Of a DNA stretch of 64,000 nucleotides, positions 10,135-16,104 are shown one piece after another; the stretch's first letter is position 1; each line of letters begins with the position of its first letter. The DNA is from Nocardioides nitrophenolicus. GTDB lineage: Bacteria; Actinomycetota; Actinomycetes; Propionibacteriales; Nocardioidaceae. Under the pieces are notes generated by a model. The model made no database searches. It saw only the letters and a program-made list of their open reading frames with translations, and was not told the DNA's origin. Made by a program: the position numbers and the translations under genes. The stretch lies in assembly GCF_016907515.1 (NCBI RefSeq), contig NZ_JAFBBY010000001.1, positions 2,976,001 through 3,040,000 of the forward strand, read 5' to 3'.

Positions 10135-12084
10135 ATGACCCTCCCCCGCCGTACCCTCCCGGCCGCCGTGGCCCTCGTGGCCGGCACCGGCCTCGCGCTC
10201 GTGACCGCTCCGCCGGCGACCGCCGCCACGGGTGCGACGGTCAGCATCTCGGGCACGACGCTGCTCGTCGACGACGCGGCGGACGTGCGCAACGTGATCG
10301 ACGTCAGCATCGACGCCACCTACGTGTACGTCCGCGACATCGTGGTGAACCCCGTCGCGGGGGCCGGGTGCGCGATCACCGGGTTCGGCAACCAGGTGCG
10401 CTGCGCCCGCGGCTCCCTCACCGGCGCCAACGTCTCGCTGGGTGGCGGCGACGACAGCTTCACCGTCGTCGGCTTCGCGCAGCCGATGATCATCGACGGC
10501 GAGGCGGGCAACGACGGGCTCGGCGGCGGCCTGGGCGACGACGCCATCGCCGGCGGTCCCGGCACCGACACGGTCGGCTACACCACCGCCGCCACCGGCG
10601 TACAGGTCCGGTTGGGGACGTCCTCGGGCAACGGCGTCCCTGGCGAGGACGACTCCCTCAACGCCGACATCGAGAACGCCCACGGCTCGCCGTTCGACGA
10701 CGTCCTCGTCGGCACCGCCGGGGTCAACCAGCTCGACGGGAAGGGCGGCGACGACGTCCTCGACGGCGGCCTCGGGAATGACGACCTCCAGGGCGGCGCC
10801 GGTGTCGACACCGTGACCTACGCGGGCCGGACCCAGCCGGTGACCGCCTTCCTGGGCGCCGGGGTCGGCGACGGCGGCGGACAGCCCGGCGAGAGCGACA
10901 ACATCACCGGCCTGGAGAACCTGGTCGGCGGATCCGGCGACGACGTCCTCCACGGCACCAACACCCCCAACCGGCTCGAGGGCGGCGCCGGGGCCGACCT
11001 CCTCGACGGCCGCGAGCAGGACGACCGGCTCGACGGCGGGCCGGGCGCCGACACCCTGCTCGGAGGAGACGGCGTCGGCAACGACTGCGTCGACTACCGC
11101 TCCCGCACCGGCCACGTCACCGCCGTGCTGGGCGCGACCAGCGGCAACGGCGAGGCCGGCGAGAACGACACCTTCGACGCCTCGGTCGACTGCGTCCTCG
11201 CCGGCTCCGGCGGCAGCCTCCTGGTCGGCAACGCCAACGCCAACCTCCTCATCGGCGGCGCCGGCGCGGACGTCCTGCTCGGTGGCCTCGGTGGTGACAC
11301 GCTCGACGGCGGACCGGGCCTCGACACCGTGTCGTACGCCGACCACACCGAGCCGGTCGTCGCCGACCTCGACGGCCTCAGGGATGACGGCCGGGCCGGC
11401 GAGAACGACCAGATCCAGCCCAACGTCGAGCGCCTCGTCGGCGGCTCCGCCGCGGACCGCCTCACCGGCTCCGCGGGGGCCGACGAGCTCGACGGAGGCA
11501 GCGGTGACGACCTCCTCGACGGCGGCCCCGGCGCCGACGTGCTGCGTGGGGGTGCCGGATCCGACACGGTCAGCTACGCGGGCCGGGTCGCTCCCGTCAC
11601 CGTCTCCCTCGACGGTGCCGCGGGTGATGGCGAGGCGGGCGAGGGTGACCTGGTCGGCCCGGACGTGGAGAACGCCACCGGTGGCGAGGGTGCCGACCGG
11701 CTGACCGGCTCGGCGGGTCCGAACGTGCTGCTCGGCGGTGGCGGTGACGACGTCCTCGACGGCGGCCTCGGCGCCGATGCCCTGGGGGGCGGCGCCGGGG
11801 TCGACCTCGCGACCTACGCCACCCGTCGTACCCGACTCTGGATCCGGCTCGACGGCAGCGCCAACGACGGCGCCAAGGGCGAGGGCGACGACGTCCGCGC
11901 CGACGTGGAGAACGTCACCGGCGGCCGCAAGCGCGACACGATCATCGGCTCCGCCGCGGCCAACCTGCTGAGCGGCGGGCGCGGGGCCGACGTCCTCAAG
12001 GGCAAGGGCGGTGTCGACCGCGCCCTCGGCGGCGCCGGCCGCGACCGGTGCGTCGCGGAGGTGGAGCGGTCGTGTTCGCTCTAG
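10135..12084 (+). CDS. Secreted RTX-like calcium-binding repeat protein
   Basis: 649 residues. A Sec signal peptide (Arg-rich start, then PAAVALVAGTGLALVTA, cleavage near TAAT) is followed by about 100 residues without repeats. Then come six related modules of about 80 residues, each with a D-T-V-x-Y-A strand, a D-G-x-x-G-E-x-D loop, V-E-N, and tandem nonapeptides of the type GGxGxDxLxGG that wind into calcium-loaded beta-rolls. It ends with two cysteines (DRCVAEVERSC). No enzyme, adhesion or anchoring domain is seen, and the leader is a Sec signal rather than the C-terminal signal of Gram-negative RTX toxins. An extracellular structural or surface role is the likeliest reading. Confidence 0.88.
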   Translation: MTLPRRTLPAAVALVAGTGLALVTAPPATAATGATVSISGTTLLVDDAADVRNVIDVSIDATYVYVRDIVVNPVAGAGCAITGFGNQVRCARGSLTGANVSLGGGDDSFTVVGFAQPMIIDGEAGNDGLGGGLGDDAIAGGPGTDTVGYTTAATGVQVRLGTSSGNGVPGEDDSLNADIENAHGSPFDDVLVGTAGVNQLDGKGGDDVLDGGLGNDDLQGGAGVDTVTYAGRTQPVTAFLGAGVGDGGGQPGESDNITGLENLVGGSGDDVLHGTNTPNRLEGGAGADLLDGREQDDRLDGGPGADTLLGGDGVGNDCVDYRSRTGHVTAVLGATSGNGEAGENDTFDASVDCVLAGSGGSLLVGNANANLLIGGAGADVLLGGLGGDTLDGGPGLDTVSYADHTEPVVADLDGLRDDGRAGENDQIQPNVERLVGGSAADRLTGSAGADELDGGSGDDLLDGGPGADVLRGGAGSDTVSYAGRVAPVTVSLDGAAGDGEAGEGDLVGPDVENATGGEGADRLTGSAGPNVLLGGGGDDVLDGGLGADALGGGAGVDLATYATRRTRLWIRLDGSANDGAKGEGDDVRADVENVTGGRKRDTIIGSAAANLLSGGRGADVLKGKGGVDRALGGAGRDRCVAEVERSCSL

Positions 12085-12286: not shown

Positions 12287-12745
12287 ATGAGCAGCGCGCA
12301 GCCGACCCCGGTCACCGACTACCGCCTGGCGCCGCCGGTGATGGCCCGCTTCGTCGGTGCCTACCTGGTCCTGCTCGCGCTGGTGCTGGTCGCGGTCACC
12401 GTCGTCGTCGCGTCCGCCGAGCTCAACGCCGACCTGATCGTGCTGGTGCTCGGGCTGGGGATCCTCGGCCTGATCGGGCTGGCCTGGTGGCTGCGCAGCC
12501 GGCTGGTCGTCGTACGGCTCACCGAGGCGGGCTACCGGGTCCGGATGATCCGCGCGGCCGGCGCCACCGAGGCCCGCTGGACCGAGGTCGAGGACGCCGT
12601 CGCGGCGGCTCCGTCGGGCATCGACTGCCTGGTGCTGCGGTTGCGCGACGGACGCAGCACCACCATCCCGGTGCAGCTCGTGGCCGGTGACAAGGACGAC
12701 TTCGCGCGCGACGTCCGGGCGCACCTGCAGCGCGCCGCGAGCTGA
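12287..12745 (+). CDS. Small membrane protein, unknown function
   Basis: 152 residues. Two membrane helices lie near the N-terminus (FVGAYLVLLALVLVAVTVVVA and LIVLVLGLGILGLIGLAWWL). A cytosolic C-terminal half of about 80 residues follows, with a PH-like pattern (VVVRLTEAGYRVRMI ... DCLVLRLRDGRSTTIPV). The architecture resembles small bacterial PH-domain membrane proteins, but this is inference. GACAAT (12275-12280) lies 6 bases before the ATG, suggesting a leaderless transcript. The promoter region is shared back to back with tRNA-Ser(UGA). Confidence 0.8.
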   Translation: MSSAQPTPVTDYRLAPPVMARFVGAYLVLLALVLVAVTVVVASAELNADLIVLVLGLGILGLIGLAWWLRSRLVVVRLTEAGYRVRMIRAAGATEARWTEVEDAVAAAPSGIDCLVLRLRDGRSTTIPVQLVAGDKDDFARDVRAHLQRAAS

Positions 12746-12965: not shown

Positions 12966-13083
12966 CTTATTCGAGGTCGATGGGTGAAGATGTTTGATGG
13001 TGCCGCCATGGGGGAAGGCGCCAGCGGTTCGGGTACATCCGGAGGGACGGAACTCGGCCGCCCACCACGTGAGGGGAAAGCTC

Positions 13084-13218
13084 ATGAAGAAGCTCGCTCG
13101 CAAGACCGCCTTCGGCCTCGCCGCCCTGATCACCGCGGCCGGCATCGTCTCACTTCCCGCGGCCGCCGAGGCCGACACCGGCTGGGGCTGGCGGGTCTTC
13201 CCGCACGCCAAGGGCTGA
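13084..13218 (+). CDS. Small exported peptide, possible signalling peptide precursor
   Basis: 44 residues. The N-terminus MKKLARKTAFGLAALITAAG is a textbook Sec signal: basic start, hydrophobic core, then small residues SLPAAAEA. Cleavage after Ala30 would release a 14-residue peptide, DTGWGWRVFPHAKG. A strong ribosome site GAGGGGAAAG sits at 13071-13080. An in-frame ATG at 12994 is possible but lacks such a site. No modification enzyme or dedicated exporter is adjacent, so it is not an obvious RiPP. The gene runs towards a LuxR-type regulator gene, its end separated from the regulator's stop by 22 bases. A role as a secreted signal sensed through that regulator is a hypothesis. Confidence 0.7.
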   Translation: MKKLARKTAFGLAALITAAGIVSLPAAAEADTGWGWRVFPHAKG

Positions 13219-13238
13219 TCACCCCGCCCGGCCACCCG

Positions 13239-13267
13239 GGTCAGGACGACGTGTCGTCGTCCTGACC
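13239..13267. terminator. Bidirectional terminator shared by the peptide and the LuxR-type regulator
   Basis: Perfect 13-bp arms (13239-13251 and 13255-13267) enclose a TGT loop. The left arm contains the regulator's stop codon and the hairpin includes its last codons, so the terminator is built into the coding end. It follows the peptide stop by 20 bases. Confidence 0.75.
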
Positions 13268-14245
13268 GGCGATGCCCAGGGTCCCCATCGTGTAGCCGAG
13301 CTGGAACCGGGTCTCGGCGTCGTACTCCTCCTTGAGCTCGGCGACGTACCCGGCGTACGTGCGCGGGCTGACGCCGAGCCGCTTCGCGCTGACCGCGTCG
13401 GCATGGCCCTCGATGAGCATCCGGATGGTCATCGAGCGCTGCTCCGAGGCGATCTCCTTGGTCACGCTCTGCCCCGCGCTCGCGAACGGGCGCCCGCGCG
13501 CGAAGGCACGCTCGAACACGTCGACGAGGTACGCCACGATCGCGGGCTCCCGGACGACGACCGCCGTCGCCAGGCTGTCGGCGGCCGGGATCAGCGCCAC
13601 CCGCCGGTCGACAACGATCATCCGGTTGAAGAACTCGTCGAGGGTGCGCACCTCGGCGCCGTGCTCGGTCACCTCGGCGACGTACTTGTGGGTCGCGGGG
13701 TGCCGCCGGGCGCTGTGCTGGTAGAGCGTGCGCATCGCCAGCCCGCGCTTGAGCGCCTCCACGTCGCGCACCGTCGCCTCCGCCACTGTCTTCGCGCTCC
13801 GCGTCGCCTGGGGCTGCGCCGTCAGCAGCTCCTCCTGCGCCTCGCTGACCAGGGTCGTGAGGTACGGGTTGATCGCCTCGCCGTGCAGGTAGAGGAAGGG
13901 GCCCGACTCGCTCGCCGCCGGTGAGCGTCGCCAGCTCTGGTTGAGATGCGCGAACGCCGAGGCCCATCGCGCCGACTCCTCGAGCAGCCGGGCGCCCTCG
14001 TTGCCCAGCGGGGTCACCACGCGCGACTGCGCATTGCTCGGCTCCACCGGCCGCCAGGTCTGCCGGGTGGCGTCCAGCTGCAGCAGCCCCAGCTCCACCA
14101 GGAGGTCGAACGCCCGTCGTACGGGCGACCCGTCGAGGACCCGCGGGTCGTCCGCGGCGAGCCCACCCTCGGCCAGCACCTGCTCGTAGAGCCCGGACGC
14201 CTCCTCCTCGAAGAGGGCCCGGTCGGCGGGCTCGTAGGAGGTCAT
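13241..14245 (-). CDS. LuxR-type regulator with TrmB-like N-terminus
   Basis: 334 residues from the ATG at 14245, which has GGAAG 9 bases upstream. A GTG at 14263 would add six residues. Residues 1-100 look like a winged helix of the TrmB kind (GSPVRRAFDLLVELGLLQLD). The middle, about 110-250, carries a phospholipase-D-like sensing fold pattern (EVTEHGAEVRTLDEFFNRMIVVDRRVALI). The C-terminus is a LuxR-class helix-turn-helix (AVSAKRLGVSPRTYAGYVAEL followed by ETRFQLGY). Members of this family are orphan regulators in actinobacteria whose inducers are mostly unknown. It converges with the exported-peptide gene across a shared terminator. Confidence 0.8.
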   Translation of the reverse strand: MTSYEPADRALFEEEASGLYEQVLAEGGLAADDPRVLDGSPVRRAFDLLVELGLLQLDATRQTWRPVEPSNAQSRVVTPLGNEGARLLEESARWASAFAHLNQSWRRSPAASESGPFLYLHGEAINPYLTTLVSEAQEELLTAQPQATRSAKTVAEATVRDVEALKRGLAMRTLYQHSARRHPATHKYVAEVTEHGAEVRTLDEFFNRMIVVDRRVALIPAADSLATAVVVREPAIVAYLVDVFERAFARGRPFASAGQSVTKEIASEQRSMTIRMLIEGHADAVSAKRLGVSPRTYAGYVAELKEEYDAETRFQLGYTMGTLGIAGQDDDTSS

Positions 14246-14480: not shown

Positions 14481-14500
14481 ATACTCTAGCGCTAGAGTAT
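14481..14500. promoter_or_regulatory. Operator of the PadR/BtrH-like operon
   Basis: ATACTCTAGCGCTAGAGTAT is a perfect 20-bp palindrome. Its right half contains TAGAGT (14493-14498), a -10 box positioned for a transcript starting at the ATG of 14505. A bound dimer would block the promoter, which fits PadR autoregulation. Confidence 0.8.
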
Positions 14501-14504
14501 GGCC

Positions 14505-15029
14505 ATGGAGCTGACGCCTGCCGAGCTGACCGTGCTCGGACTGGTGGTCGAGCAGCCCCGGCACGGCTACGACCTGGAGCAGGTCATCGAGCAGCGCGGC
14601 ATCCGGCAGTGGACGGAGATCGGCTTCTCGTCGATCTACTACCTGCTCGCCAAGCTGGAGAAGCGCGGGCTCCTGTCCGCCGAGGAGGCCGGCGGGGGTG
14701 CGAAGTCTCGACGGGTGTTCCGGGCGACCAGGCAGGGCCGGCAGGTCGCGACGGACGGTGCCCTCGCGTTCATCGCGGACGGCCGGACGGTTCCGCAGCC
14801 GGTGCTGGTCGGATTGGCCAACCTGGCGCTCGTGGCCGAGCGCGACTACGACCAGGCGCTGTCCAGCAGGCTGACCCGGGTCGAGGCTCGCATCGCATCG
14901 GTCACCGAAGCGCAGCGCTCGCAGACCCCACTCCCGCCTGCCGCGCGCGAGGTCTTCTCCTACTCGCTCAGCCTGCTGGAGGCGGAGAGATCTTGGCTCG
15001 TCGCACGGGTCCGGGGCGGAGATGAGTGA
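14505..15029 (+). CDS. PadR-family transcriptional regulator
   Basis: 174 residues starting MELTPAELTVLGLVVEQPRHGYDLEQVIEQRG, the typical PadR winged-helix N-terminus, with SSIYYLLAKLEKRGLL as recognition region. The C-terminal part is helical and probably dimerises. An ATG at 14499 would add two residues but lies inside the operator. The position 7 bases after the -10 box favours 14505 with a leaderless transcript. The stop overlaps the BtrH-like gene by 8 bases, so the regulator and that protein are made together and are probably repressed together through the 20-bp palindrome. Confidence 0.9.
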   Translation: MELTPAELTVLGLVVEQPRHGYDLEQVIEQRGIRQWTEIGFSSIYYLLAKLEKRGLLSAEEAGGGAKSRRVFRATRQGRQVATDGALAFIADGRTVPQPVLVGLANLALVAERDYDQALSSRLTRVEARIASVTEAQRSQTPLPPAAREVFSYSLSLLEAERSWLVARVRGGDE

Positions 15030-16104
15030 GAAGTCCGACGTCGACGCGACGATCGTCGACGGAGTTCCGACCGTGGGTGGGCTGCACTGCGAGACGACCG
15101 CGCTCGGTGTGCTCCTGAGCCATGCTGGGCTCCACCTCTCCGAGCCCATGATGTTCGGGCTCGGCGCAGGGCTGTCCTTCGTCTACTGGGACTCGAAGAA
15201 GCAGGACCTCCCGTTCCTGGGCGGCCGGGTGAGGCCCTTCGCGCTGACGCAGAACCTCACCGAGAGGCTCGGGCTGGAGCTGCGCGTGCAGGAGACGACA
15301 TCGGCGCCGAAGGCTTGGGACCAGGTCCGCGCGTCGATCGATCGCGGGATCCCCGTCGGCCTGCAGCTCGACAGCCACGACCTGGAGTACTTCGGGTCCC
15401 GGGTGCACTTCGCCGGCCATGTCGTCGCCATGTACGGCTACGACGACGAGCGGGCCTATCTGGTCGACACCGCGCAGCAGGGCGGCGGCGTGTCCACCAG
15501 CTTGCAGAGCCTGGCCCGAGCGCGCGCCGCGCGGGGACCGATGGCGGCCCGTCATCGCTCCTTCACCGTGGAGGTGCCGGAACAGGTCGAACTGGCACCC
15601 GAACGCCTCCTCCCGGCCGTCATTCCCGCGATCACCGAGTGCGCTGAGGCGTTCCTGGCTCCGCCCATCGCCAATCTGGGCAACCGGGGCATCCACACGG
15701 CGTCGAAGCGGATCCGCACGTGGTTCGACCGGGTCGAGGAACCCGATCGAGACCTCCCCGTCATCGCCACGCTCATGGAACGGGCAGGCACGGGAGGCGC
15801 GCTCTTCCGCAACCTGTACCGCGACTTCCTGACCGAGTGCCTCGGCCTGTTCGAGACCTCCCGGGAGGGCAACCGGGACCGGGACCTCGTGCAGCGGGGT
15901 AGGGATCTCTTCGCCGAGTCCGCCCTGCTGTGGACGCGGGTCGCGGAGCTCGTCGAGGGCGCCGGCGTCACCGGCGACCTACAGCGGCTGGCCGACGCGA
16001 GTGATGTGCTGGAGGAGATCGCGGCGACCGAGACCTCCGCGATGACCGCGCTCCGGTCGCTGGCCGCGTCGACCAGCGGGACCGTGCTCGCCGCGGATGC
16101 GTGA
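15022..16104 (+). CDS. BtrH-like protein (BtrH N-terminal plus DUF4872 domains)
   Basis: 360 residues. The first half resembles the BtrH N-terminal domain, a papain-like fold: Cys23 (GLHCETTALGVLLSHAG), His133 (FAGHVVAMYGYDDE) and Asp149 (AYLVDTAQ) would form a triad. The second half (about 165-350) is a helical DUF4872-type domain. BtrH itself moves an acyl side chain from an acyl carrier protein onto an aminoglycoside. Here there is no carrier protein or antibiotic cluster next door, so the acceptor is unknown, and transferase or amidase activity are both possible. It is tightly coupled to the upstream PadR regulator, suggesting induction by a specific small molecule. Confidence 0.75.
   Translation: MSEKSDVDATIVDGVPTVGGLHCETTALGVLLSHAGLHLSEPMMFGLGAGLSFVYWDSKKQDLPFLGGRVRPFALTQNLTERLGLELRVQETTSAPKAWDQVRASIDRGIPVGLQLDSHDLEYFGSRVHFAGHVVAMYGYDDERAYLVDTAQQGGGVSTSLQSLARARAARGPMAARHRSFTVEVPEQVELAPERLLPAVIPAITECAEAFLAPPIANLGNRGIHTASKRIRTWFDRVEEPDRDLPVIATLMERAGTGGALFRNLYRDFLTECLGLFETSREGNRDRDLVQRGRDLFAESALLWTRVAELVEGAGVTGDLQRLADASDVLEEIAATETSAMTALRSLAASTSGTVLAADA

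Follow-up and report, generated by a model that had tools for sequence, protein, structure and literature searches.

A secreted-looking peptide gene beside a TrmB-like/LuxR-type regulator in Nocardioides and other actinobacteria: a candidate peptide-signalling pair

The closest described systems are the RRNPP(A) pairs (PlcR-PapR, Rgg-SHP and Rap-Phr), in which the receptor, a cytoplasmic protein, is encoded next to a propeptide that is exported, and the signal is a short linear peptide. TPR repeats are the hallmark of RRNPP receptors. Precursors of the yeast alpha-factor type carry multiple copies of near-identical short pheromones in one secreted protein. Passages of PMC10075063 and PMC9765709 describe RRNPP systems for Firmicutes/Bacillota, and a passage of PMC11343458 describes tandem pheromone copies in Phr propeptides. 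Parts of PMC3466318 and PMC4748050 deal with actinobacterial quorum sensing and LuxR regulators; the main text of PMC3466318 makes no mention of TrmB. In the open-licence PMC literature we found no one-component system of actinobacteria that signals by a linear peptide. Here we describe a 44-codon gene and a convergent regulator gene from a 64-kb stretch of Nocardioides nitrophenolicus DNA (the window), together with their relatives across the phylum, and compare the pair with these systems.

The 44-codon gene and its convergent regulator

The 44-codon ORF (Table 1) was the only one in the window to pass a filter requiring a signal-peptide-like start, a ribosome site and a DxxW motif. Its signal-peptide-like start ends in AEA, followed by DTGWGWRVFPHAKG, and the junction of AEA with D resembles a signal-peptidase site by eye; signal sequences were judged throughout by hydropathy and charge and by eye. 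Across 11 close Nocardioides sequences, which include two near-identical pairs, dN/dS was 0.16 for the signal peptide, 0.12 for DTGWGWR and 1.84 for the last 7 residues, the last value indicating that the tail is unconstrained. The gene is real and evolves as coding DNA, as the initial annotation had supposed when it pointed to a ribosome site and a signal peptide. That annotation had also proposed a 14-residue product; the dN/dS pattern makes the functional unit look shorter. Conservation starts right at the N-terminus that the predicted cleavage would create and covers the first 4-7 residues of the mature peptide. Eight database proteins matched the peptide, all of 44 aa and one of them the window's own. 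Pfam and NCBIfam held no family for it, a YiaAB match to the signal part falling below the cut-off, and the own genome (5.8 Mb) contained no strong paralogue, only weak partial matches (best E 0.17).

Table 1. Features of the peptide-regulator pair (positions are those of the window)
Feature	Position	Strand	Basis
Propeptide gene MKKLARKTAFGLAALITAAGIVSLPAAAEADTGWGWRVFPHAKG	13084..13218	+	44 codons + stop; ORF, Nocardioides homologues, dN/dS
Ribosome-binding site GAGGGG, before ATG	13071..13076	+	sequence reading; similar in close relatives
Sec-type signal peptide, residues 1-30	13084..13173	+	cleavage after AEA predicted by eye; dN/dS 0.16
Core D-T-G-W-G, putative signal unit	13174..13188	+	DxxW ORF at 75/80 regulators; relatives' repeated cores delimit 4-5 residues
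W-R, then variable tail	13189..13215	+	residues 38-44 (last 7) unconstrained, dN/dS 1.84
Perfect 13-bp inverted repeat, loop TGT	13239-13251 / 13255-13267		possible bidirectional terminator without T-run
Regulator, 334 aa, ATG at 14245	13241..14245	-	TrmB-like winged helix + PLD-fold + LuxR HTH; AlphaFold2 pLDDT 86.3
N-terminal winged-helix domain, residues 1-67	14045..14245	-	model; aligned to TrmBL2
PLD-fold sensor domain, residues 115-255	13481..13903	-	model and fold match; catalytic His replaced (Phe206)
Arg160-Asp161, putative specificity residues touching core position 2	13763..13768	-	covariation
C-terminal LuxR-type HTH, residues 261-323	13277..13465	-	model; profile matches DosR/NarL

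The regulator gene lies on the opposite strand and converges on the 44-codon gene. The junction between them carries a perfect inverted repeat, kept by eye in most of the 11 close relatives, which had been annotated as a shared terminator with 13-bp arms. The repeat itself is there as described; its role as a terminator is putative because it has no T-run, was not flagged at 13239..13267 by the terminator scan and sits mostly within the last codons of the regulator. The assignment of the regulator to the TrmB/PLD-like plus LuxR class was borne out by the AlphaFold2 model and by fold and profile matches, which predict a TrmB-like winged helix, a PLD-fold domain and a LuxR HTH. Profile matches to DosR, NarL and GerE fell at about residues 260-327. 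Among the Pfam matches of the window regulator GerE was absent; in its relatives it was below the cut-off at L153 and L159 and above it at L186. The active-site motif of PLD proteins is HxK(x4)D, and Phe206 presumably stands where the catalytic His of this motif belongs; in column counts, His occupied the catalytic column in 1 of 46 regulators. The own genome contained no paralogue of the regulator at E up to 1.

Pairing and arrangement of the two genes

Searching 215 Nocardioides genomes with the peptide produced matches in 120 of them (E up to 0.1), a large share of these matches being weak. The neighbours of the best 30 places (own included) were inspected, and in 30 of 30 a regulator homologue with 57-100% identity lay convergent next door. 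The regulator itself was present in 197 of the 209 Nocardioides genomes searched. Among 80 named regulator loci, nearly all Nocardioides and taken as the best of 111 ordered by similarity, a convergent, small, secreted-looking ORF with DxxW was found at 75. Under a strict filter 72 of the 80 loci were positive, compared with 2 such ORFs elsewhere in 1.32 M strand-bases. The pairing is far beyond chance, and the search for small signal-peptide genes beside homologous regulators that the initial annotation had proposed was strongly positive. It had also looked to the C-terminus of the peptide for conservation beside these regulators; this end proved free to vary in Nocardioides, conservation lying at the mature N-terminal end instead. 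As for the five exceptions, L061 has an ORF from another start, L090 ends near a contig edge, L054 has a remnant, and at L053 and L055 no peptide gene was seen beside the regulator. At L054 the remnant, downstream of the regulator, is a 28-aa ORF that starts MKKLTRR and ends RDTSWGGGS; no hydrophobic stretch is present, and the ORF resembles a degenerate copy. Many Nocardioides peptides (L057, L059, L062, L065, L079 and others) read D[TS]SWGCGGxC with two Cys, which suggests a disulphide variant.

The locus is syntenic in Nocardioides, with tRNA-Ser(GCT) in 76 of the 80 loci and a membrane-protein gene in 74, and adjacency in Nocardioides alone is weak evidence because the pair lies within this conserved synteny. 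In the window, the membrane-like protein is small, has no Pfam match and is encoded at 12290-12742 (+). Beyond tRNA-Arg, at 14499-16104 (+), a PadR regulator gene overlaps a BtrH_N/DUF4872 (C39-like) gene; these neighbours were considered as members of the system and rejected, having no match in the 80 related loci. The product of another window gene, at 10135-12084 (+), is 649 aa long; its start resembles a signal peptide, and it contains about 10 calcium-binding repeats of the RTX type.

Outside Nocardioides the regulator is patchy. It was found at E 1e-15 or better in 78 of 296 class-level genomes, 15 of the 78 being Nocardioides (own included), and in a phylum-wide draw in 14 of 296 genomes and 4 of 193 genera. 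Genomes that we infer to be Streptomyces-like (the named precursor homologues are Streptomyces) carried 1-7 regulators each; these counts, seven included, are lower bounds, seven candidates having been scored per genome. In these genomes the peptide gene is mostly divergent from the regulator and mostly about 86-160 nt off, with a few convergent or tandem-down cases. The link between the two genes has therefore survived rearrangement. A strict divergent DxxW ORF was present at 34 of 133 Streptomyces-like and other regulators, at 91x the density elsewhere in the same loci (10 strict DxxW ORFs in 1.47 M strand-bases); the other 99 regulators of this set, all outside the Nocardioides-type set, had no strict divergent DxxW ORF. 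The regulator, initially described as an orphan, is not one in Nocardioides, where a peptide gene almost always accompanies it; elsewhere only some paralogues are paired.

For a regulator tree the Nocardioides-type loci were thinned to every fourth and 151 of 154 rows were kept, 18 loci being labelled by eye with a relaxed xxxW motif. In one Streptomyces-like clade, 22 of 22 rows carried a divergent peptide, and the convergent label required at least 4 changes on the tree. A neighbouring Streptomyces-like clade from the same clusters had no strict divergent peptide ORF in 29 of 29 rows, which belong to the 99 regulators above; its members may use the signal of the cluster-mate pair. At L149, L150 and L152-L164, one or more such extra paralogues without a peptide of their own stand beside the peptide-bearing regulator, possibly as co-receptors or antagonists. 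A pair in another family of the phylum (L254) has a peptide ending YDTGWD, with an uncertain start codon. The precursor at L177 has nine GTTWD repeats, and other distant paralogues lie by secreted-looking ORFs that, by eye, end in or repeat STIWG, DMIWG, SLIWG or TTAWE (x2).

When 21 divergent regions were aligned (L149-L165, L168, L190, L241 and L245), the gap between peptide and regulator was strongly conserved across differing cores. By eye, these regions share a candidate operator, a TCCTG-N6-CAGGA repeat with GATGCATC; none was seen by eye in the alignment of the 11 close Nocardioides sequences. Streptomyces precursors in the database are mostly called "hypothetical protein" where named, and some (P0016, P0031, P0059 and P0084) are entered in UniRef as "5'-nucleotidase", apparently by misannotation.

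Repeated cores and their covariation with the regulator

At least two DxxW cores were present in 36 of 120 precursors; 39 of the 120 do not belong to the Nocardioides-type set, and these account for 26 of the 36. A few rows in these counts, in those of the gene arrangements and in the covariation set below may be false precursors, L225 and L199 being doubtful. Streptomyces-like precursors often have 2-10 cores, and most Nocardioides precursors have one. The DxxW tetrads were identical within the precursor in 35 of the 36 multi-core cases and vary widely between precursors (DVGW x7, DSTW x10, DSGW x7, DPGW, DIAW and others). A single Streptomyces-like query retrieved 79 precursors from the database, of which 76 were likewise homogeneous in their tetrads. 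The free core positions 2 and 3 agreed at 1.00 and 0.98, compared with 0.32 and 0.30 after shuffling, and none of 2000 shuffles reached this. Mean within-precursor identity over 30 precursors was 1.00, 1.00, 0.99, 1.00 and 0.77 for core positions 1-5 (positions 1 and 4 are fixed by the search, so that their 1.00 is built in) and 0.03-0.30 at flanking positions, the spacers being unconserved. Identical cores between unconserved spacers therefore indicate selection on a product of 4-5 residues and not mere recent duplication. In 17 of the 120 precursors the sequence ends at most 1 residue from a core. Cores within one genome were distinct no more often than by chance (0.62 by shuffling), which is uninformative on orthogonality.

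Core position 2 varies together with regulator residue 161. In a set of 115 pairs, which excluded L061, loci without a peptide and regulators with a score of at most 100, Ser or Thr at core position 2 went with Asp161 in 87 of 92 pairs (Glu in the other five) and with Arg160 in 90. Where position 2 held another residue, Asp161 occurred in 2 of 23 pairs (L225 and L222), both without Arg160. The window pair, with DTGW, Arg160 and Asp161, obeys this rule. A tree for these pairs was built with residues 155-166 excluded; on it core position 2 is inferred to have changed 11 times, and in 8 of these cases residue 161 changed along the same branch. Two of the 8 are regains whose placement hangs on the parsimony rule. 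This statistic is post hoc, since column 161 had already attracted attention when it was chosen. Column 161 was the best of 581 column-residue traits (0.669), and 0 of 500 simulated traits gave an equal column (null maximum 0.645), the traits kept having a minority state of 15-35 tips and 8-16 changes (500 of 1193 tries). A test on the maximum NMI over columns was weaker, with the observed value reached in 19 of 300 simulations. For core position 2, 20 of the top 30 columns fell in the PLD domain (p 0.0037); for core position 3 the figure was 16 of 30, with no significant enrichment (p 0.13). Together with pairing in several arrangements, this covariation supports the peptide-regulator signalling unit proposed at the outset, and strongly suggests, from sequence, that the peptide is the regulator's ligand.

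A proposed signalling route and its relation to known systems

We consider, with a probability of roughly 0.75, that the pair is a cassette of a secreted propeptide and its cognate cytoplasmic receptor, for which we infer export, processing, import, binding and a transcriptional effect. We favour this reading because of the coding constraint, the pairing in multiple orientations, the sharp 4-5-residue unit, the predicted domains and the joint evolution of core position 2 and residue 161. The small gene would encode a Sec-exported propeptide. In Nocardioides the signal peptidase cut would directly yield a short extracellular peptide starting at D-T-G-W-G, and in the Streptomyces-like relatives further proteolysis would free the 1-10 cores. 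The peptide would then be re-imported, most simply through oligopeptide ABC importers, and bind the PLD-fold domain of the adjoining cytoplasmic regulator, where Asp161 and Arg160 would read Ser or Thr at core position 2; binding would alter DNA binding by both HTH domains. A precedent from Streptomyces coelicolor, where BldK takes up a small peptide-like signal from outside the cell, makes such an import route plausible. The own genome encodes 14 oligopeptide-type binding proteins (SBP_bac_5), none linked to the pair.

Other readings were weighed against the same evidence. Regulators often adjoin a gene under their control, and the peptide could be exported to serve as an effector, whether antimicrobial, surfactant or coat peptide, its gene governed by a neighbouring regulator that senses something else; the conserved divergent promoter region common to the Streptomyces-like pairs and the Cys pair of some Nocardioides peptides (DTSWGCGGYC) would fit. 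However, an effector does not predict a sensor-domain residue that changes along with core position 2, nor a repeated 4-5-residue unit between unconserved spacers, and we think this reading unlikely. We give rather less credence to a propeptide acting inside the cell or at the membrane, for instance with its signal peptide left uncleaved or as a control peptide that senses itself: the repeated Streptomyces-like cores and those lying within 1 residue of the C-terminus suggest release of a free peptide, although good conservation extends to the signal peptide too (dN/dS 0.16) and the export steps are conjectural. Multi-core precursors are known among RiPPs, so that the repeats might be cores of a modified natural product and the regulator its pathway regulator. 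Pfam and NCBIfam gave no family for two Streptomyces-like precursors, one of which weakly matched thiovarsolin below the cut-off (19.6 bits against 35). At three non-Nocardioides loci, 10 ORFs that cover a small part of the surroundings comprised 8 members of ordinary families, 2 without a match and no RiPP-modifying enzyme; most Nocardioides precursors, moreover, have a single core, which leaves a RiPP very unlikely. That two unrelated genes have stayed together by chance between tRNA genes, as the synteny in Nocardioides would allow, is scarcely credible, since the association recurs in other families, orientations and places and the two partners co-vary.

If the propeptide and regulator do form a signalling cassette, the pair offers a candidate ligand for a regulator class whose inducer, like the peptides themselves, found no description in the open-licence PMC literature, where we also found no peptide ligand for the class. 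The relation between position 2 and residue 161 predicts specific specificity swaps, and the idea is directly testable because the predicted peptides are cheap to synthesise. More broadly, and with less assurance, we lean towards an undescribed, patchy class of actinobacterial peptide quorum sensing, in which D-x-x-W-x or xxxW peptides from single- or multi-copy propeptides would act on PLD-fold TrmB/LuxR receptors through a code of position 2 and residue 161, with several independent channels per Streptomyces genome.

Several described systems share single features with this pair. Like the yeast alpha-factor precursors, those of the Streptomyces-like genomes each hold several near-identical, putative short signals; the proteins and the receptor are unrelated. 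With the LuxR-family quorum regulators and LuxR solos the regulator shares a C-terminal GerE-type LuxR HTH, found by profile; an AHL receptor was rejected, since the Pfam and NCBIfam matches up to E 1 include no autoinducer-binding domain and the sensor is modelled as a PLD-fold. The archaeal regulators TrmB and TrmBL2 have the same combination of winged helix and PLD-fold domain. A sugar ligand is a feature of TrmB-like regulators; for the present one the coevolution points to a peptide. The RRNPP(A) feature of a small exported propeptide gene beside the receptor was found here at 75 of 80 loci, as judged by hydropathy and charge. Unlike RRNPP systems, the present pairs belong to Actinomycetota, and their precursors hold as many as 10 copies in which the variable positions are the same. 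An RRNPP/TPR receptor was rejected, as no TPR family was among the Pfam matches up to E 1 and the model combines a winged helix with a PLD-fold of alpha/beta type and a LuxR HTH. Overall, the pair is best read as functioning like RRNPP systems while being unrelated to them and not a member.
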